A stretch of 64,000 nucleotides of DNA from an uncultured Saprospiraceae bacterium. GTDB taxonomy: Bacteria; Bacteroidota; Bacteroidia; Chitinophagales; Saprospiraceae. A program made the translations under genes and the position numbers. Every line of letters starts with the position of its first letter. Position 1 is the stretch's first letter. The notes under the pieces were generated by a model. That model saw nothing but the letters and a program-made list of their open reading frames with translations, was not told where the DNA came from and did not search any database. Shown here piece after piece: positions 1,429 to 10,945 of this stretch. The DNA lies in NCBI GenBank assembly GCA_937923485.1, contig CALDUE010000126.1:1-64000 (forward strand). The letters are read 5' to 3'.

Positions 1429-1609
1429 TTGGCGTTCGACGAGCTCTGCTCGGGCCAGTTTACGTTTAGCGTGTGATTTACCGCCGCGATAAATCGCATG
1501 CTACCCTTCGACAAGCTCGGGGAATCTCAAGCGAGCTACGCAGCTTACCTGCAGAATGCACAAACAATAGCCAATCTCAACTTCTCTTTTGCTCGCGGTA
1601 TAAGATCAG

Positions 1610-1646
1610 AAGCCCTTCTGATTTGCGAATTGGAAGGGCTTTTTTT
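1610..1646 (+). terminator. Rho-independent terminator after xylA, with an alternative hairpin
   Basis: A perfect 9-bp stem (AAGCCCTTC at 1610-1618 with GAAGGGCTT at 1633-1641) is followed by a run of T to 1646. The left arm overlaps a second perfect hairpin, ATCAGAAG / CTTCTGAT (1605-1612 with 1615-1622), so the two stems exclude each other. The rest of 1429-1604 holds no convincing gene, only short GC-rich inverted repeats near 1438-1523 of the kind seen between Bacteroidetes genes. On the other strand the hairpin lies just past the stop of the 1653-2498 gene. Confidence 0.7.
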
Positions 1647-1652
1647 GTGCGA

Positions 1653-2498
1653 TTATATCCCGTCTGCCACAGAAAGGCGTCTGAGTACTTTATCCTTCGT
1701 ACGCTCTATTCGCGCAAGAATTTCTTGCTCGAACCGCCTACCACTATACACTCCTCGACCATTGACACGAGTAGCTGAACGTTGCACACGCTCAAAATAG
1801 GCGTCAAAATAAGCGCACGTACTTGGAGAAGAACTTCTAACAAAATTAGGATTGTCGAAGGTTACAAAGACTTCCTCACGTTCTGGGCTTTTTACAGAAA
1901 TAATGCTTGCTGTACTATGGAATTGATTCTGAGAAAGTGAAAAAGAACTCCCGCCTACTTTCTCACACTTTTGAGATGAGTTTTTAATTTCACCTACCAA
2001 ACGAGTAAGTGACTCAAAGATGATTTTCGCATCTTCAATACTCATCGCACGGGCTTCTGCGAGGTATAGTATTTGGTAAAGAATGCCACGAAAAGGTGTT
2101 GCTCCCCAAACTTCTTCTGAAGCAACACTAAAATAGCCTTCGGCTACCTGCTTTGCTCTGGTTATCCAGTCAGCCCTCTTATCCAGCTGATGACTCAAAC
2201 TAAAGTTCTCTTCAATTCGCTCAACATTCTCCGTCTCAAAAGCGAACAACTTAAATGCAGCGAGTGCTGGTTCGGCCAACAACCAAAAAATAGGTATATC
2301 GGTAGTTGAAATCCTGACCCTAGCAGATTGATTCCACTCAGGCTTTGCGTAATGCTCTACAACAGATCCAAGACCAGCAATGTAAAGATCTGCATCAAAA
2401 GATTGCCCGAGGAGATTCACAACCTCAAATGGAAGGTATTGTCCTGATAGTTCACTTTCACTTAGCGGTACATCGAGCAGCTTGCTGAGAAATAGCAT
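1653..2498 (-). pseudogene. C-terminal part of a disrupted helix-turn-helix protein
   Basis: This 281-codon frame starts at an ATG one codon after a TGA (2502-2504) that ends the helix-turn-helix frame at 2502-2687. Both are in the same frame, and the first residues (EMLFLSKLLDVPLSESE) read as the natural continuation of an XRE-type helix-turn-helix domain, where the last helix and the 'LLxVxLxEL' turn follow directly. The remaining 260 residues are unrecognised: mostly helical, without a signal peptide or membrane segment, with a serine-rich stretch near residue 190-230. I read the locus as one 343-codon regulator broken by a nonsense codon. A downstream restart at this ATG could still make a truncated protein without DNA binding. 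Confidence 0.6.
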
Positions 2499-2501
2499 TT
2501 C

Positions 2502-2687
2502 TCATGCCCCAAATTCCATCCGACCTGACTTTCTTTTATAAAAGGCGCTCTCACTCAGACACAGTTGCTCAGCAAGCTCTGCGGCACTGAGGCCTTTCTC
2601 TGCTATTCGAATAGCCAAAGCTGAGAGCCAAATGGTATAAAATCCTTTTCCATCATTACGCATACTATTCATTTTATCTGCTGCCAT
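2502..2687 (-). pseudogene. N-terminal helix-turn-helix part of the disrupted regulator
   Basis: The frame encodes 61 residues. Residues about 30-57 (GLSAAELAEQLCLSESAFYKRKSG) form a good helix-turn-helix of the Cro/C1 or similar class: 'LSAAELAEQL' as helix 1-2 and 'SESAFYKRKSG' as the recognition helix. It ends RMEFGA-TGA, and reading through the TGA gives a continuous protein with the 1653-2498 frame. On its own it lacks the last helices of the fold. It could be a pseudogene, a sequencing error (TGG or CGA read as TGA) or, much less likely, a recoded stop; no SECIS-like hairpin was noticed after the TGA. Confidence 0.6.
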
Positions 2688-2978
2688 TTCCTATCGATGC
2701 CTGGTTAGTATTTCTCGAATATAGCCATCCGACGGAGTAAATAATCGTAATTCGAAAATTTTCAAGCCTTTTCACGTTTTTCTTTATCGAAAATCGAAAA
2801 ATAGGATGGCATTATTCTCGATTTCCGCATGACTGCTATAAAATGGAGATCTCAGTTGCGATTTCCGCAACTCAACAGATGCGGAGTGCCAATAATCGAA
2901 AGAAAAGTCTAAGACTGCTCCATTACTTTTGGAAGGCGATCTACTCGTGGATGCTCTAAGCAGTTTAAATACCTCATC
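2688..2978. promoter_or_regulatory. AT-rich divergent intergenic region with repeats and a likely promoter
   Basis: No gene is visible in these 291 bases between the divergent regulator fragment and the lipoprotein array. The word CGATTTCCGCA occurs twice, 40 bases apart (2819-2829 and 2859-2869), and the second copy sits in a small hairpin GTTGCG/CGCAAC (2855-2871). Repeats of the type TCGAAAA run through 2748-2803. TACTTTTG at 2924-2931 matches the Bacteroidetes -7 box TAnnTTTG and would drive the lipoprotein genes with a leader of about 45 bases. The repeats could be operator sites for the adjacent regulator (inference). Confidence 0.45.
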
Positions 2979-3608
2979 ATGCAGTCTATAACTTTCAAGA
3001 TAATCACTAATATAATCGCGATGAGTGTTCTTTGCTGTGTGTACGGATGCGACAAAGAATCTAATACAGATGCGCTACGTCGCAAGTACCCTATTCCTAC
3101 AGAATTACCTGAAGTCACTTGTGATGGTGCCAATACGGTCGGTGCACGGTTTGATTCCATTCTATTTGTAGCTAATTACTTCCCTAATACTTCTTCTTGG
3201 GGTAGCCCAACGCCAGAGGATGGAGTGAGGGCTTTTTTCAGATACCCTTCCGGTGGTTTAGAGCCGTTTATCGAAGTATTTGCAGAACATCCTATTAGGC
3301 CAAATGAAATTGATAATCGACGCATGAATTCTTTCTTATGGTATTACCCTAATCTTGATAGTTTAGCTCACCTTTCATTTAGATATGTCGGGGGGGGGGT
3401 AGACTTCAACTCTAAATCTACTTCCATATCTCAAGATTTAGACCACAACCTTAGTTTCAACATTCAAGATAGCATACTATGTGGTTCTATTGCAATGTTG
3501 ACTCTTACAGAAACAAGTAAGTCCGACATTGGGAACCCCGAAATATATGACACCATCATCATACGCGATTTCCGTATTGATGTTCCTGTACACTTGGGGC
3601 GTTACTGA
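2979..3608 (+). CDS. Putative lipoprotein, copy A of a four-gene tandem family
   Basis: The 209-aa protein has a short signal peptide ending in a lipobox-like VYGC (C24), then DKESNTDALRRKYPIPTELP, a stretch shared almost unchanged by the next gene. Two cysteines conserved in all four copies (in VTCDG and in LCGSI) could form a disulfide, and the end PVHLGRY is also family-wide. Residues about 90-175 differ from the paralogs. A run of ten G (3390-3399) encodes GGG after RYV. Losing one G creates an immediate TAG, and gaining one gives a stop five codons after the glycines, so the gene may be phase variable. I do not recognise the family. It is probably attached to a membrane and exposed to periplasm or surface. 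Confidence 0.75.
   Translation: MQSITFKIITNIIAMSVLCCVYGCDKESNTDALRRKYPIPTELPEVTCDGANTVGARFDSILFVANYFPNTSSWGSPTPEDGVRAFFRYPSGGLEPFIEVFAEHPIRPNEIDNRRMNSFLWYYPNLDSLAHLSFRYVGGGVDFNSKSTSISQDLDHNLSFNIQDSILCGSIAMLTLTETSKSDIGNPEIYDTIIIRDFRIDVPVHLGRY
3390..3399 (+). repeat. G10 homopolymer inside lipoprotein gene A
   Basis: Ten consecutive G are followed by TAGAC. In the present length the codons are GGG GGG GGG GTA GAC. G9 would read GGG GGG GGG TAG, a stop. G11 would read GGG GGG GGG GGT AGA CTT CAA CTC TAA, also a stop. The aligned position in copy B is VGNG, without a homopolymer. Long G tracts are the classic slipped-strand site of phase-variable genes. Confidence 0.85.
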
Positions 3609-3838
3609 TCTAGTCATCTCAAATGTTATAGCTGTTTAGTATTTTTTTGACCACAGCTTTAATGCTGCGCAATTGAAAAAACGATGAAATTTATTCCTTC
3701 GATACTACGCTCATCCCTAGCTCTCCTCTTTTTATGTGGAGTTTTGGCGACAGCTCTAATGTCCTGTGACAAAGAATCTAATACTGATGCGCTACGGCGC
3801 AAGTATCCAATCCCCACCGAGCTGCCCGAAGCAACTTG
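3567..3838 (+). repeat. Duplicated segment, first copy (pair with 4281-4552)
   Basis: About 270 bases, covering the 3' end of gene A, the whole A-B spacer and the first 155 bases of gene B, recur 714 bases downstream with only scattered changes. The spacer, with its T7 run and the AGCTGT/ACAGCT arms, is copied almost unchanged, although non-coding DNA should diverge fast. This points to recent tandem duplication or ongoing gene conversion. Confidence 0.85.
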
Positions 3839-4322
3839 TGAGGGATTAAATACGGTCGGTGCACATTTTGATTCCATTCTATTTGTAGCTAATTACTTCC
3901 CGAACACCTCTTCATGGGGAAGTCCAACGCCGGAAAATGGAGTAAGGGCGTATTTCGATTTCTTAGACGATGACACGCCTTATATCAGAGTACTAGCAAC
4001 ACATCCAATTCGTCCTGAGGAGATAGATCCGAGGAGAATGAACTCAACTATTTGGTACTTTCCAATAGAAGACAGTATTGGACTGGCTAGTTTCCTGTAT
4101 GTTGGAAATGGAATTGAATTTTCAACTAAAAAAGTGGGGCTTCCTAAACAGTTTTCCAGTGGTATTTTCTTCGACCCTATCGATAGTGTACTATGCGGCA
4201 CCATACCTGAATTAACTCTTATCGAGACTAGTAGTATCGATATCGGCGACCCTGTCATCTACGACACTATCATCATGCGAGATTTCCGTATTGATGTACC
4301 TGTACACTTGGGGCGTTACTGA
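3684..4322 (+). CDS. Putative lipoprotein, copy B of the tandem family
   Basis: The protein has 212 aa. The signal peptide ends in the lipobox LMSC (C28), followed by DKESNTDALRRKYPIPTELP. The first half matches copy A (GSPTPENGVRA, VGAHFDSILFVANYFPNTSS), while the signal peptide is nearly identical to copy C. The two family cysteines (ATCEG, LCGTI) and the ending DIGDP..YDT...RDFRIDVPVHLGRY are present. The middle, about residues 85-175, is variable. It starts 75 bases after gene A. A one-mismatch copy of the iterated word (GTTTTGGCGACAGC, 3741-3754) lies in the signal-peptide codons. The function is unknown. Confidence 0.8.
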   Translation: MKFIPSILRSSLALLFLCGVLATALMSCDKESNTDALRRKYPIPTELPEATCEGLNTVGAHFDSILFVANYFPNTSSWGSPTPENGVRAYFDFLDDDTPYIRVLATHPIRPEEIDPRRMNSTIWYFPIEDSIGLASFLYVGNGIEFSTKKVGLPKQFSSGIFFDPIDSVLCGTIPELTLIETSSIDIGDPVIYDTIIMRDFRIDVPVHLGRY

Positions 4323-4552
4323 TCTAGTCATCTCAAATTTTATAGCTGTTTAGTATTTTTTTGACCACAGCTTTAATGCTGCACAATTGAAAAAACGATG
4401 AAATTTATTCCTTCGATACTACGCTCATCACTAGCTCTCCTCTTTCTATGTGGAGTTTTGGCGACAGCTCTAATGTCCTGCGATAAAGAATCTAATACGG
4501 ACGCACTAAGGCGCAAATATCCTATCCCTACAGAGCTCCCCGAAGCAACCTG
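4281..4552 (+). repeat. Duplicated segment, second copy (pair with 3567-3838)
   Basis: This is the second copy of the 3'-end, spacer and 5'-end unit, covering the end of gene B, the B-C spacer and the start of gene C. The offset is exactly 714 bases throughout, so no net insertions or deletions separate the two copies. Confidence 0.85.
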
Positions 4553-5036
4553 CGAAGGAAAAAACACCATCGGCTGCTACGTCGACTCTATCCTCTTTGT
4601 AGCAAACTATTTCCCAAATACAAGCAGCTGGGGATCACAAACCTATGAAGGGGGTGTAAGAGCTTTTATTGAAAATCCTGACGATGACTATATCCAGATC
4701 ATTGCAGAACACCCTATTCGTCCTCATGAAATTGATAATAGATGGATGAGGCTGAGCATTTGGTATTGGCCAGAAGTAGATTCAATAGGGCATATTTCTT
4801 TTCAATATATTGGGAATGGCGAAGATTTCGATGCTAAACACAATCGTTTAGTCCCAACCTCACATCCACAATACAACTTGAGCTATGACTCTGCCCTCCC
4901 CCGTCTGTGCGGGGCTATTTCTTACGCTGAAATAGCCGAGTATAATCCACAAGATATTGGAGACCCACTTGTCCGTGACACATTAATACTCCGCGATCTA
5001 CGCCTAGACCTACCCGTATATACGGGACGCTACTAG
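4398..5036 (+). CDS. Putative lipoprotein, copy C (mosaic of B and D)
   Basis: The protein has 212 aa with lipobox LMSC (C28). Residues 1-52 are almost identical to copy B. From ATCEGKNTIGC to about residue 110 it switches to near identity with copy D (SSWGSQTYEGGVRAF, ENPDDDYI.IIAEHPIRP). The last third is again its own, ending LRLDLPVYTGRY as in D. This clean switch shows recombination among the four paralogs. C and D have an extra cysteine (IGC) that A and B lack. The spacer to gene D (5037-5096) is unlike the A-B and B-C spacers. The function is unknown. Confidence 0.8.
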   Translation: MKFIPSILRSSLALLFLCGVLATALMSCDKESNTDALRRKYPIPTELPEATCEGKNTIGCYVDSILFVANYFPNTSSWGSQTYEGGVRAFIENPDDDYIQIIAEHPIRPHEIDNRWMRLSIWYWPEVDSIGHISFQYIGNGEDFDAKHNRLVPTSHPQYNLSYDSALPRLCGAISYAEIAEYNPQDIGDPLVRDTLILRDLRLDLPVYTGRY

Positions 5037-5096
5037 GCAATTCAAAATTTGAATACCTCGACTATCAGCTCCCCTTGCATTCTCAAAATTTAAGAA

Positions 5097-5711
5097 ATGA
5101 AAATCCTATTTCTCACATTAGCTGTAGCGCTTATTTCGGCAATTTTTGCTTCATGCGACAAAGAATCTCAAAACGATGAATACCGTCGATTGTATCCTAT
5201 TCCTACGGAATTACCTGAGGCAACCTGCGAAGGAAAAAACACCATCGGGTGCTTCGTCGACTCTATCCTTTTTGTCGCCAACTATTTCCCAAATACAAGT
5301 AGCTGGGGATCACAAACCTATGAAGGAGGTGTAAGAGCATTTATTGAGAATCCTGACGATGACTATATAAATATCATTGCAGAACACCCTATAAGACCTG
5401 AAGAAATTGACTCTCGATTCATGAGAATTGATATTTGGTGGAACTTAAAAGAAAACAAAGTAGATCTACTCAAATTTCAATACAGTAACCCAGGTTACTT
5501 ATTTGGCTTTGACTTAGACACAGTAAATAATGCAAGAAATTTCCTGTTCGACATAGTTTACGATAGTGCTTCAACACGCTTGTGTGGTTCAATATCCAAT
5601 GCCCCTTTGATAGAATACACAGCAAGAGATATTGGGGACCCCCTAGTTTTTGACACCCTGACACTCCGCGATCTACGCTTAGATCTACCCGTTTACATGG
5701 GCAGATACTAG
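5097..5711 (+). CDS. Putative lipoprotein, copy D of the tandem family
   Basis: The protein has 204 aa. A short signal peptide ends in the lipobox FASC (C20), followed by DKESQNDEYRRLYPIPTELP. It carries the block ATCEGKNTIGCFVDSILFVA and GSQTYEGGVRAF shared with copy C, a private middle section rich in Asn and Asp, and the family ending DIGDPLV.DTL.LRDLRLDLPVYMGRY. It has the two conserved cysteines plus the extra IGC cysteine. It ends the array and is followed 61 bases later by the large secreted esterase-like gene. No enzymatic motif was recognised. Confidence 0.8.
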   Translation: MKILFLTLAVALISAIFASCDKESQNDEYRRLYPIPTELPEATCEGKNTIGCFVDSILFVANYFPNTSSWGSQTYEGGVRAFIENPDDDYINIIAEHPIRPEEIDSRFMRIDIWWNLKENKVDLLKFQYSNPGYLFGFDLDTVNNARNFLFDIVYDSASTRLCGSISNAPLIEYTARDIGDPLVFDTLTLRDLRLDLPVYMGRY

Positions 5712-5772
5712 AATCTAAAATGTAACAAATTTTTAACTGCTGCCATTGCGCGGCTAGCCAAACCTATGCATC

Positions 5773-6669
5773 ATGCAGACATTCCGAACTATTTTTCTTA
5801 CCCTATTTGCTTCTTGGCTTGCGCTCAGCGCAAATGCCCAGGCATTCACACAGGTCGATACGCTACCCGACCCTTTCACTTCTATTCGAGAACTCTACTA
5901 CGAACTCGACACCTTACAAATGCCTACTGGATATCTTATCGATGCTACCTGGGCCATGGCTGATGTTACACCTTATAAGGGGAATGTTATTCCACCTGAC
6001 TCAATGGCAGTAGACTTTGGTGACTACCAAAGCCTTTACATTTCAACATTTGGAATGTCAATGACGGAAGCAACTAAAAATTCCTTTCTCACCTTTCGAC
6101 ACATGAATGCAGGTATGTTTGCCAGAGATACTGCTCGACTACACGGCATTGCACTCGCTTATGACCGGTTAGATCCTGCAGCAGTAGATGACAACCTCAT
6201 CACCATCGATACGGTTGCATATCGGCTGTATGACGTTCCTGGCCGATCTCGGTCGCCTTATTTACCTGACACAATGGTCACGCTCACCATTGCAGGCGGT
6301 CGTTCAGATACGCTCACTCAAAACTTTATTTTTGAGGAACAAGACTTACTTGGCCAACTGTCGAATGCCAGCATTTTCTACCTAGATGCAGGACAAGGTT
6401 TCGTAAAACACGACTTTGGGGAGCTTTTCAGCCTAACTTTTCCAAGCTTTGATGAATATCAGCTTACGCTAAAACTAGCCACCACAGGCGGATGGAAATA
6501 TGCAAAGATTAAACTAAATCTCGAACAACCTCAATACAAAACAGAAGAAGAAACCTGTGATGAAAGTGTAGCTTTTACAGGAGGTGATTACTGCATAAAA
6601 TTTAGCGGTAAATGCGGAGAAAGACTCTTTCTGTTAATGGCTTTGACCCTACTGGTGAGGGCGATTTGA
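5773..6669 (+). CDS. N-terminal part of a secreted esterase-like protein (frame-disrupted)
   Basis: This 298-codon frame has a clear signal peptide (TLFASWLALSANAQA, cleavage near residue 23) and a beta-rich N-terminal region without recognised motifs. Its natural reading probably ends near KFSGKCGE. The last 15 residues (RLFLLMAL...) look like out-of-frame reading of DNA that in the other frame encodes KTLSVNGFDPTGEG, the usual lead-in to a PGAP1-like alpha/beta-hydrolase ('EGFDP'). One extra A in GAGAAAGAC (about 6617-6624) would join it to the 6612-9950 frame as a protein of about 1390 aa. It may be a real indel, a -1 shift or a sequencing error. Confidence 0.7.
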   Translation: MQTFRTIFLTLFASWLALSANAQAFTQVDTLPDPFTSIRELYYELDTLQMPTGYLIDATWAMADVTPYKGNVIPPDSMAVDFGDYQSLYISTFGMSMTEATKNSFLTFRHMNAGMFARDTARLHGIALAYDRLDPAAVDDNLITIDTVAYRLYDVPGRSRSPYLPDTMVTLTIAGGRSDTLTQNFIFEEQDLLGQLSNASIFYLDAGQGFVKHDFGELFSLTFPSFDEYQLTLKLATTGGWKYAKIKLNLEQPQYKTEEETCDESVAFTGGDYCIKFSGKCGERLFLLMALTLLVRAI

Positions 6670-9600
6670 GGCTAGATCGGCTTAATAGAGAGTTTGCATT
6701 CGTTTTTGATGGCAATCACCCTAATGGAGGTCAAACTTTAAAAAAGGTCTTGCTAGATGACTATGGATATGACCTCATCTTTGTCACTTTTGACAACGGT
6801 GTGGCAAGTAACATTACTACAGGCGATTGGCTTGTAAATGCGATCAAGAGTATGAACGCTCGTAAGCTAGCAGACGGTGTAACTGAAAAAACACCAATTA
6901 TTGGTGTAAGCATGGGTGGTCTAGTAACTAAGATTGCTATTGCAAAAATGGAAGCAGATAACTATGACCACCAATTGTCAAAGTATTTTTCTTTTGACAC
7001 TCCTCTTCGGGGCGCCAATATACCTCTTGGACTCCAACATGCAGCTGCTCACGTGTACCGCGCTAAAGTTTTAGGGGTGCTCATCCGTAAGCTTGATTGT
7101 GGAATTAGAGAAACAGGCAGAGCCCTATTCAATCCAGCTGCTAAAGAAATGTTACTAGTGACAGCAGATGCAGAAGCGACTTACCGCCATTGGCCATTTC
7201 CTTCAACGGTTGTTCACACAACTACCACTGCAGACCATTTAGCATTTCAAAACTATTTCGATGGGCTTTCGATTAATATCCCACACTATGCTATTTCTAA
7301 TGGAGCGGCTGCAGGCAATCAATCTGTTGTTGGTTCAGGTACATCACAAATTTCCCCCAATGCTCTGATACTAGACATCAAAAGCCTACCAATACCGTTG
7401 AATATGCGAATAAAAGCAAAATTCTTACCACAGTGTTTTTCTGTTAGAGCAGGAGGATTTCAAATTTCTTCAGCTGCTCTAGATTTAGCTTTTGACGGTC
7501 TTCCAAATTACGATCTTTTAGCTGGTGGCACTCGTGGAACACACGATCGAGGTGAAAAGAAGAATTGTAAAGATAAATGGCCAAAAAAGAAAAGTTTCTC
7601 TCAAGAATATGTTGCAGACTACCACAGCTTCATTCCTACCCTAAGTTCGCTTAACCTAACCCTACCAGGCGAACTTCCAGGATCTGGAACGGGGTCGGAC
7701 TACCGTTTTGCAGGTGTTGAAATGCTAGCAAGCAGACATAATGATGTACCATATAATGTTCAAAACCACAGCCATGTAACTGTGACACCAGGCATTGCGG
7801 ATTTCCTTGTCAATAATTTAATACCCGTTAGCGACTTAAGTCCAACAGCTATCGACCCAAGCACTTCAATTCTTAGCTACCCCTACAACTTTGGACAATC
7901 TTCTGCGGGAGTAGGTGGACCTATCAGTACATCTACATACCTGCATGGGGTACTCGGGGTGACCTCGTCTGGAGCTATTCTAGTCAATAACGATGACGTT
8001 ATCAGCAATACCACCATTACATCTAACCCACAAAATAACACAGCTCCATTCCAGCTTACACTAACTACCGGCCCTTGCGATTCACCTCCCGCCGACATCA
8101 CCCTTCAATCTGGAGCAGAGTTTATCGTAGGCGAAAACCAAACGCGAACAGCACAAGTATTTGCCTTGCCGGAGACCCGTGTCACTGTCCAAAGTGGCGG
8201 GACACTGAGTGTCAATACTGGTTCAACCTTCAGACTTCAATCTAGTGGCCCAGATAACAATGGCGGTATTGTAGTCCAAGCAGGAGGGTTGATTGACGCC
8301 AAATGGGGCGGCCGCATCATTGCTAACGGAGGCCTTATCCGTGTAAAAAGTGGCGGTATGCTCCGCACCTCTTATAACGGTCAAATCATCGCTCGCAATG
8401 GTGGCCGTATTATACTCGAAGACGGTGCACTCGTCCAGTTGTGGGGAGGAGATGTAGACCCTGAAGGAAATGGTCAAGTCTGGATTCAATCTGGAGGCAC
8501 ACTGGAAATACTTGGTGACTATGAAACCTCTGGAAACGGGTATTTTCACTTTTCACAAGGGAACGAAGTAGAGGGCCCAGGTGCGCTCAAGATCGAACAT
8601 AAAAATCGAGAATATCGTCGAATGTATGTTGATCATGGAGCTAGCGTGACACTAACTGGGCAAGATTTCTATGCCCAATCGGCGAGAATTATCTACGACG
8701 GTTCTAGTGGGCTTAAACTGAGAGATGGTTCAGAAGCTGACGTATCAACTTGTGTTTTTGAAGGCGGTCGAGCTTCGATTCAAACTGACCTCACTGCCAA
8801 AGCGAACATCCGTCATTCTGATTTTCGAGAAAGTAAAACAGGGGTAGAATTTCTCACCGAAGATGTTGCTGGAGGCAGTGCCACAGTGCGCAGTTGCACC
8901 TTTACAAATTGTACTGAAGGGGTCGTTGCCCAACATAAAGGTGATGCGACACTCTCTATAAATTCTTATCCTTCAATTCGCTCAAGTGAGTTTATCAATT
9001 GTGAATACGGTTTGTACATACAGGAGCACCCATCAGTTTCCGTCTACAGTTCATCTTTCACCAGCTCAAATGAGGAATACGTTGCAATAGACGCTACCGA
9101 TGCGGGATTAGTCGATCTAGTCAACTGTGAAGTATTCGGGTACACGAATGATGATTCGGGGGCTATCAGATCAGATAAAGTGAGTGACTTTCGACTGGAT
9201 GCTGGAGAATATCATAACAACTCAACAGTAATGACAGTATACGGCACAAGCGATATTACCCTAACCGAATGCGTTGAATTTTCAACCAACGATATTGGCA
9301 TAGACTGTTTCGCAGCAAGCACCATCGATTTTAATGGTTCAGACTGGACAAACACCTCTCCTGCTGTACAAAGCGCAAATGCAGCGGTAACCGTAACGAG
9401 TACCAAGTCCAACAGCTTTGTACATGGAGGTGATCCATTCTTTCAGTTCGAGTCCACTGGAAATATTGAAATGGAAAACAACAGTTGGATGCTAGAGCTT
9501 GATGGTAATGACTTACCAATCCAAAGTGCTTGGTTTGACCTTAGTGGCTCTGGCAACCCAAGCGTTACCGTAACCACGCTAGGTGAAGGATGTGGTAGTG

Positions 9601-9950
9601 ACTGTCAAAACCTAGATGACTGCCGTCGTTTCTGTGAATACTATCCAGAAAGTGATTTTTGTCAGATTAAGCCGCCTCTCGGAGGTTTCAAAGGCGAAGG
9701 CGATGGCCCAGGATTAGTCCTATTCCCTAACCCCGCAAGTGGTCAAGTGACAATCGTCAATTTACCTGACGACCAATCTTACAGCCTGACAATCTATTCG
9801 GCTACTGGACAAATAATGCAGACCTACACTAGTCTTCAAAGTCCTGTACAAGAAATTGGGGTCTCTGATTTAGTCCCTGGGTTTTACTTGCTTCAACTTT
9901 CAACTGAAAGTGGAGCTATGCAGCAAAAGCGGTTCTCAATCGCTAGGTAG
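6612..9950 (+). CDS. PGAP1-like esterase / right-handed beta-helix protein with T9SS sorting domain
   Basis: The 1112 codons are read from an ATG that overlaps the previous frame by 58 bases; a stop (TAA) lies directly upstream in this frame. Residues about 20-250 form an alpha/beta-hydrolase: FVFDGNHPNGG, the nucleophile elbow GVSMGG (Ser in GxSxG) and FDTPLRGANIPLG, as in PGAP1-type lipases/esterases. A long region follows with many short beta repeats (VQSGG, VKSGGML, CTFTNCTEGV) typical of a right-handed beta-helix. The end (LVLFPNPASGQVTIV ... LVPGFYLLQLSTESG) is a T9SS type A sorting domain. The product should be exported and released or anchored at the surface. It lacks its own signal peptide, which is encoded by 5773-6669. 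The substrate is unknown. Confidence 0.8.
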   Translation: MRRKTLSVNGFDPTGEGDLRLDRLNREFAFVFDGNHPNGGQTLKKVLLDDYGYDLIFVTFDNGVASNITTGDWLVNAIKSMNARKLADGVTEKTPIIGVSMGGLVTKIAIAKMEADNYDHQLSKYFSFDTPLRGANIPLGLQHAAAHVYRAKVLGVLIRKLDCGIRETGRALFNPAAKEMLLVTADAEATYRHWPFPSTVVHTTTTADHLAFQNYFDGLSINIPHYAISNGAAAGNQSVVGSGTSQISPNALILDIKSLPIPLNMRIKAKFLPQCFSVRAGGFQISSAALDLAFDGLPNYDLLAGGTRGTHDRGEKKNCKDKWPKKKSFSQEYVADYHSFIPTLSSLNLTLPGELPGSGTGSDYRFAGVEMLASRHNDVPYNVQNHSHVTVTPGIADFLVNNLIPVSDLSPTAIDPSTSILSYPYNFGQSSAGVGGPISTSTYLHGVLGVTSSGAILVNNDDVISNTTITSNPQNNTAPFQLTLTTGPCDSPPADITLQSGAEFIVGENQTRTAQVFALPETRVTVQSGGTLSVNTGSTFRLQSSGPDNNGGIVVQAGGLIDAKWGGRIIANGGLIRVKSGGMLRTSYNGQIIARNGGRIILEDGALVQLWGGDVDPEGNGQVWIQSGGTLEILGDYETSGNGYFHFSQGNEVEGPGALKIEHKNREYRRMYVDHGASVTLTGQDFYAQSARIIYDGSSGLKLRDGSEADVSTCVFEGGRASIQTDLTAKANIRHSDFRESKTGVEFLTEDVAGGSATVRSCTFTNCTEGVVAQHKGDATLSINSYPSIRSSEFINCEYGLYIQEHPSVSVYSSSFTSSNEEYVAIDATDAGLVDLVNCEVFGYTNDDSGAIRSDKVSDFRLDAGEYHNNSTVMTVYGTSDITLTECVEFSTNDIGIDCFAASTIDFNGSDWTNTSPAVQSANAAVTVTSTKSNSFVHGGDPFFQFESTGNIEMENNSWMLELDGNDLPIQSAWFDLSGSGNPSVTVTTLGEGCGSDCQNLDDCRRFCEYYPESDFCQIKPPLGGFKGEGDGPGLVLFPNPASGQVTIVNLPDDQSYSLTIYSATGQIMQTYTSLQSPVQEIGVSDLVPGFYLLQLSTESGAMQQKRFSIAR

Positions 9951-9970
9951 AGTACAAATTTAAAGAGTGT

Positions 9971-10010
9971 TAGAAGTGGGTGTGTTCTGAATAGGATGCA
10001 CCCACTTCTA
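9971..10010 (+). terminator. Hairpin after the esterase gene
   Basis: A perfect 12-bp inverted repeat (TAGAAGTGGGTG at 9971-9982 with CACCCACTTCTA at 9999-10010) encloses a 16-base loop. It is followed by TTAAATTTAG rather than a pure U run, so it may be a weak terminator or an mRNA 3'-end stabiliser. Confidence 0.55.
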
Positions 10011-10063
10011 TTAAATTTAGGGGCAACACCCTTATAACTAAATTTTTAGTTACACCTTTGAGC

Positions 10064-10945
10064 ATGCTTATCGTATCTCGCTTACTGCTATTGCTAGCTG
10101 CCTGCTCCAGTTTGGTTGCTGCAGCCCAAACCCACACCCTCACCTCCTGGAAAGGTTCAGCCTATCACATTGAGGATAAATACTTGCAAGCTGGATACGG
10201 TCCGCATGTAATTGACGGTGAGTTCTTCGGTCATATTGAATTGGAAGCACTGAACATCGAACTACAGCCAGAAGACCAGACCTTCCCAGGCGTATACGAG
10301 CGCGTCCAATTTGGGATTATTGTCCGCTCAAAGCTGGATATACTAGAGGCCGGATGCTACCAATTAAGCCTAAATTCAGATGACGGCTCTGTACTCTGGA
10401 TCGACGATGAGTTGGCCGTTTCTAATGATGGGCACCACAAAGAACGCCGTGTTACAGATAGTCTAGTCTTTGATAAAAAAACCTACGAAGCGAAGGTCTG
10501 GTACTACAATGCCTATTACGGCGGCTATGCACTAGAGTTGGATATAGATCGGATCGGGCCGGCTGAAAGCTGTCCCAATGTTGAGCTTACAGTTCCCCCT
10601 AAGGAGCCAATCATTTTAATAGGTGCTCAGCTATTCAGCCATGGTAGCTACATCATACTACGCAGAGGCGCTGAGCAATTTGATGAACTTGTCGCTCAGT
10701 TAAGAACGATGGACATCAAGAAGATTACCATTATTGGCCATACCGATGATACTGGAGAAGAAGCGGACAATCTTGTTCTCTCTGAACGACGAGCAGAATC
10801 GGTTCTTAGCTTTTTACAGAGTCGAGTGAATTTAACGGGTGTAGAAGTCGTCCTCTTGGGAAAAGGCGAATCTGATCCCGTTGCAGACAATGCTACACGC
10901 GCAGGCCAAGTCCGTAATCGTCGGGTCGAGATTCTAGTCGAGTAA
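10064..10945 (+). CDS. PA14-like domain fused to an OmpA-like peptidoglycan-binding domain
   Basis: The 293-aa protein has a signal peptide (LLLLLAACSSLVAAAQ). Residues about 25-175 look like a PA14 carbohydrate-binding fold: CYQLSLNSDDGSVLWIDDELAVSNDG..., then KVWYYNAYYGGYALEL. Residues about 190-290 are an OmpA-like domain (ITIIGHTDDTGEE, LSERRAESVL, GKGESDPVADN, RNRRVEILV) that should bind peptidoglycan. I prefer the ATG at 10064 over the upstream in-frame TTG at 10058, because the TTG lies inside a CCTTTG that resembles a -7 box. It may tether a glycan-binding head to the cell wall, but the role is inferred. Confidence 0.8.
   Translation: MLIVSRLLLLLAACSSLVAAAQTHTLTSWKGSAYHIEDKYLQAGYGPHVIDGEFFGHIELEALNIELQPEDQTFPGVYERVQFGIIVRSKLDILEAGCYQLSLNSDDGSVLWIDDELAVSNDGHHKERRVTDSLVFDKKTYEAKVWYYNAYYGGYALELDIDRIGPAESCPNVELTVPPKEPIILIGAQLFSHGSYIILRRGAEQFDELVAQLRTMDIKKITIIGHTDDTGEEADNLVLSERRAESVLSFLQSRVNLTGVEVVLLGKGESDPVADNATRAGQVRNRRVEILVE

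Follow-up and report, generated by a model that had tools for sequence, protein, structure and literature searches.

A G10 tract in the first gene of a Saprospiraceae lipoprotein array is a candidate slippage switch within a family of lipoproteins with recurrent poly-G

Slippage-mediated switching is, by a modest preference, the best explanation for a run of ten G residues (G10) in lipoprotein A of an uncultured Saprospiraceae bacterium, whose genome was analyzed here through a 64-kb stretch of contig (the window) and its relatives. This reading now ranks first because relatives of the genus g100 carry poly-G both in frame and out of frame, with enrichment over the background. The family-level pattern of poly-G is the more interesting result compared to the tract of A. 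More tentatively, mosaic tandem lipoproteins of the DUF6252/Riean_0653 type and a T9SS-secreted PGAP1-like hydrolase may together constitute a contingency module of Bacteroidota that has not been described before, in which poly-G/C tracts would independently switch the lipoproteins (in the window and g100) and the hydrolase partners (in genomes G114, G068 and G120). In the proposed mechanism, the G10 in the first of the tandem lipoprotein genes would serve as a contingency site prone to slippage, where the gain or loss of one G at replication would shift the frame and end the protein at residue 140-145, ahead of the conserved C-terminal strands. In a clonal population, lipoprotein A would then be functional in some cells and not in others, and later slips would restore the frame. 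The tract of A presumably varies in length in real populations, truncation would be expected to inactivate A, and the switching of A may be selected, perhaps because it varies a protein that acts as a surface antigen, as a phage receptor or in partnership with the secreted hydrolase.

The G10 homopolymer (3390..3399, + strand) lies within the 209-aa open reading frame (ORF) of lipoprotein A (2979..3608, +), as the first-pass annotation had claimed. The run begins exactly at codon 138, fills codons 138-140 (GGG GGG GGG) and ends on the first base of codon 141 (GTC GGG GGG GGG GTA GAC). The same annotation had placed a TAG after the three glycine codons upon loss of one G and an early stop upon gain of one G; both are borne out by the computed frame outcomes, in which the G9 allele encodes 140 aa followed by TAG and the G11 allele encodes 145 aa. 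The G8 allele is likewise truncated (144 aa), while the G7 and G13 alleles keep the frame (208 and 210 aa). Thus, the locus has the arrangement by which phase-variable loci are recognized, i.e., a homopolymer of mutable length within an ORF where a change of one base truncates the product. In the structure model of A, the tract codons fall in a loop that follows a predicted strand, and the product truncated at residue 140 is without the conserved C-terminal strands. The tract is located about two thirds into the gene, whereas the tracts of classic switches are usually 5'-proximal.

Lipoprotein A is followed in tandem by its paralogs B (212 aa, 3684..4322, +), C (212 aa, 4398..5036, +) and D (204 aa, 5097..5711, +). 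The absence of a homopolymer from these other copies, also noted in the first-pass annotation, is upheld: the codons that correspond to the tract are GGA AAT GGA in B and GGG AAT GGC in C, while D is unrelated at this position and has no such site. The assignment of A as a lipoprotein is similarly sound, as A has a signal peptide with a VYG/C lipobox. The signal peptide and lipobox cysteine by which Bacteroidota lipoproteins are recognized are found in the array, where lipoboxes (VYG/C, LMS/C and FAS/C) read by eye are followed by DKES in all four proteins, placing an acidic DKE after the lipobox cysteine. The surface-type character given to A in the first-pass annotation is putative. B and C have common 5' ends (93-98% identity over the signal peptide), A and B are alike in the middle and 3' end, and C and D are alike in the middle. 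This mosaic pattern of identity suggests that A-D may have arisen by duplication with local gene conversion. The intergenic spacers of A-B (3608-3683) and B-C (4322-4397) are near-identical, including a T7 run, and are a possible substrate for recombination.

Based on sequence comparison, A-D appear to be a divergent branch of the Riean_0653 (NF052634)/DUF6252 lipoproteins. None of the four has a match in Pfam, and the scores against NF052634 (41.6 bits for D, the best of the array, 38.7 for C, 25.0 for B and 23.4 for A) are all below the curated cut-off of 57. Homology nevertheless extends over most of the length, with hhalign aligning A-D to the family members of relatives at 97% probability (E 9e-11, 157 columns), including the C-terminal block lost upon truncation at residue 140. 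A family member of genome G100 matches DUF6252, again with a score below its cut-off. In Riemerella, Riean_0653 is needed for full hemolysis but the protein is not itself hemolytic (PMC7881567); this role should not be transferred to the distant A-D branch. Searches of Rfam and, by sequence, of solved structures returned no match, and a fold search with models of A (pLDDT 62) and of G100 copy 2 (pLDDT 76) returned nothing significant, the best being LpqH-like (E 0.04). No ortholog of A-D was found in 199 genomes of the same family, GTDB contigs, viral contigs or plasmids. Thus, the tract of A is known at one length, from one draft genome.

Downstream of the array is a partner gene in two parts. 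The 5' part (5773..6669, +) matches the partner profile at E 1e-9 and loses its frame near 6612-6640, while the 3' part (6612..9950, +; E 2e-39) includes a PGAP1/DUF676-like region with weak Pfam matches, a GVSMG motif and a T9SS C-terminal sorting domain. The frameshift near 6612-6640 has no long homopolymer at the break and reflects either an assembly error or a real pseudogene. The array and partner occupy a lineage-specific segment of 8.7 kb (1459..10123), which is replaced by about 1 kb between the same flanking genes in the congener G001. Of 62 fetched loci, 20 have a hydrolase homolog beside the lipoprotein family, and on this basis the pairing of lipoprotein and hydrolase is considered recurrent across the sequences compared. 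Tandem copies are common among the lipoproteins of the family and, as in the window, often precede a gene for a PGAP1-like hydrolase with a T9SS tail. In G100, short 5' remnants of the hydrolase gene are observed after individual lipoprotein copies (L269 4010-4267 and 5031-5336), which suggests that the G100 array may have grown by duplicating lipoprotein-hydrolase units.

The evidence that carries the family-level pattern is from 60 loci around family members, selected by profile hits. G100 was followed up because one copy had a G8 run, and G215 was added as its congener. On contig C65 of G100, the G8 of copy 2 is in frame (177 aa), whereas the G10 of copy 3 is out of frame and ends the deposited protein at 88 aa; the complete C-terminal half of copy 3 is open in another frame, with no further lesion. 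A homolog of G215 has G10 in frame at the same site as the G100 copies, another G215 copy is broken exactly at GGC-G6 at this homologous site, and a further copy has G8 in frame. Thus, the two species of g100 present both frame states at one homologous hairpin, and slipped-strand switching is the simplest account of these in-frame and out-of-frame alleles in otherwise intact paralogs. In the lipoprotein genes of the g100 genomes (10.1 kb), there are four G/C runs of at least eight, as opposed to none in the 285 kb sampled as background and flanks (Fisher P 9e-7). Across the 60 array loci, 7/7 runs are located in genes of the lipoproteins or hydrolases, 30% of the total sequence (P 2.4e-4), and without g100 the count is 3/3, all in hydrolases (P 0.019); as these P-values assume independent runs, the shared ancestry of paralogs and the run-prompted follow-up of G100 mean that they somewhat overstate the evidence. 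The four lipoprotein tracts outside the window are all from g100, and about 36 kb of family members from other genera have no G/C run of at least eight. In the predicted models, the A and g100 tracts each encode a turn after a strand. The hairpin of A differs from that of the g100 site; thus, the tract of A is at best of independent origin, and that its G10 is an independent switch is plausible by extension from g100.

Runs are also found in the partner genes of three genomes (G114, G068 and G120). A G11 marks the exact point at which the G114 hydrolase gene is split (L375 about 7727-7779), and other partners have C9 after the start codon (L322 1054-1062) or C8 after the signal peptide (L287 1160-1167). 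Slippage was rejected for the in-frame stop of the G136 partner gene (L283), as the stop is in the same frame. Separately, four family relatives (L206, L213, L220 and L221) have poly-C10 directly after the start codon (M..FTPPP) and before the signal peptide; the tract keeps the frame in two of them and breaks it in the other two, and these are candidate phase-variable leaders of secreted proteins. In the genome of the window, a C8 run of L010 1482-1541 (G000:C54:31785-31792) separates an upstream ATG from a signal-peptide ORF in another frame and may be a leader switch or a 5' UTR. In relatives, a few cases of a poly-C leader following the start codon (TTTTAC8) are convincing, but the array locus is not one of them. 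Poly-G/C in relatives was rejected as a general sign of switching, as many runs are at contig ends or in housekeeping genes.

The rarity of the tract bears on whether it arose by chance. The run at 3390-3399 is the only G run of at least eight in the 64-kb window, as well as the only G/C run of this length, and the 3.31-Mb draft genome (216 contigs) has just one other G10. G/C runs of at least ten are expected at 0.19 per genome from the geometric tail of observed runs (estimated from 621 kb of contigs not picked for runs) or 0.73 by a first-order Markov model, and in-frame G10 runs at 0.44 from triglycine sites and codon usage. With about 0.2-0.7 such tracts expected in this genome versus one credible tract observed, the G10 of A, taken by itself, does not strongly exceed chance. 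These values leave room for an alternative that is possible, if on the doubtful side, in which the GGG AAT GGN of the paralogs became GGG GGG GGG by substitution in a tolerant Gly-Gly-Gly turn, with slippage at a low rate and no selection. The codon number at the site is the same as in B and C, and the site falls in a predicted loop where model confidence is low (residues 139-151), as such a chance origin would have it. Similarly, in-frame G10 occurs in housekeeping genes of relatives, namely those of thiolase and an FAD-dependent oxidoreductase (Rossmann-type GGG motif), and in-frame G8 occurs in the metK of this genome. Against chance, GGG is the rarest glycine codon of the genome (12%), and poly-G recurs in the lipoprotein family with out-of-frame states in g100.

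The second G10 of the genome (L007 4993-5002; G000:C7:9992-10001) is a C10 in the acceptor arm of a tRNA-Met, 13 nt from a contig end, where it makes an A-C mismatch at a position that is paired in 11/11 relatives. This C10 is likely a base-calling or consensus error and, thus, calls for caution on the G-runs of this assembly. An artifact in which one or more non-G bases in or beside a G-rich stretch were miscalled as G is also conceivable for A, since the only other G10 is very likely of this kind, long poly-G is found at the contig ends of several relatives, and the partner gene is frameshifted 3.2 kb from the tract; it is considered unlikely, as the tract of A is located 3.4 kb into a contig of 67.8 kb, with its frame preserved and its flanks in good alignment with the paralogs. 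It is very improbable that A is a decaying duplicate whose tract arose among several neutral changes to a lineage-specific island: the island is missing from G001, the partner gene is split and partner-gene remnants occur in g100 arrays, but the ORF of A is complete, with a signal peptide, a lipobox and conserved blocks at the N and C termini, some near-identical to B.

Slipped-strand switching, as proposed in the first-pass annotation, is thus partly supported: its frame arithmetic holds and the g100 family members with both frame states strengthen it, while the single length known for A, the late position of the tract and the presence of mismatch repair weigh against it. With regard to repair, mutS (MutS1) is intact and mutL is apparently split over two contig ends; thus, working mismatch repair is probably present. 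Unlike this genome, C. jejuni is not known to possess MutSL mismatch repair. G10 tracts are of mutable length in the measured case of C. jejuni, with deletion at 0.0018 and insertion at 0.0004 per division, or about 2e-3 (PMC8224891).

In comparison to known systems, the window resembles the poly-G/C loci of Campylobacter jejuni and Neisseria in having an in-frame G/C tract of 8-12, prompt stops upon a change of one base and a probable envelope product, and the g100 relatives share with these loci the in-frame and out-of-frame states. The window differs in its few tracts per genome, its mismatch repair genes, its tract late in the gene and its single known length. The GGG loops of housekeeping enzymes (thiolase, FAD oxidoreductase and metK) have the same codon arrangement with in-frame G8-G10; by contrast, they are conserved glycine motifs outside of any array, with no out-of-frame relatives among those examined. 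A-D share with the NF052634/DUF6252 lipoproteins the lipobox, an LPxxTxxGxNTxG block, a C-terminal SGTF...DGRFD-like block, tandem copies and a T9SS hydrolase neighbor, but are longer and below the curated cut-offs, and the family definition includes no homopolymer. Arrays of immunity lipoproteins next to secreted (phospho)lipase effectors include, for example, Tle/Tli of the T6SS. The tandem diverged lipoproteins beside a hydrolase gene, and the hydrolase remnants between copies in G100, are reminiscent of this organization, a likeness of gene arrangement; however, the partner hydrolase has a T9SS tail and is without T6SS features. In the literature library searched, no paper combined Saprospiraceae with phase variation. 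Phase variation by simple repeats has been described chiefly in host-adapted Proteobacteria and Campylobacterota, while Bacteroidota are better known for DNA inversions. If true, a lipoprotein/hydrolase module switched by poly-G would bring this mechanism to a further phylum and habitat, in a mostly uncultured family of Bacteroidota, and would suggest that a lipoprotein family of unassigned function is under selective pressure (from phage, predators or rivals).
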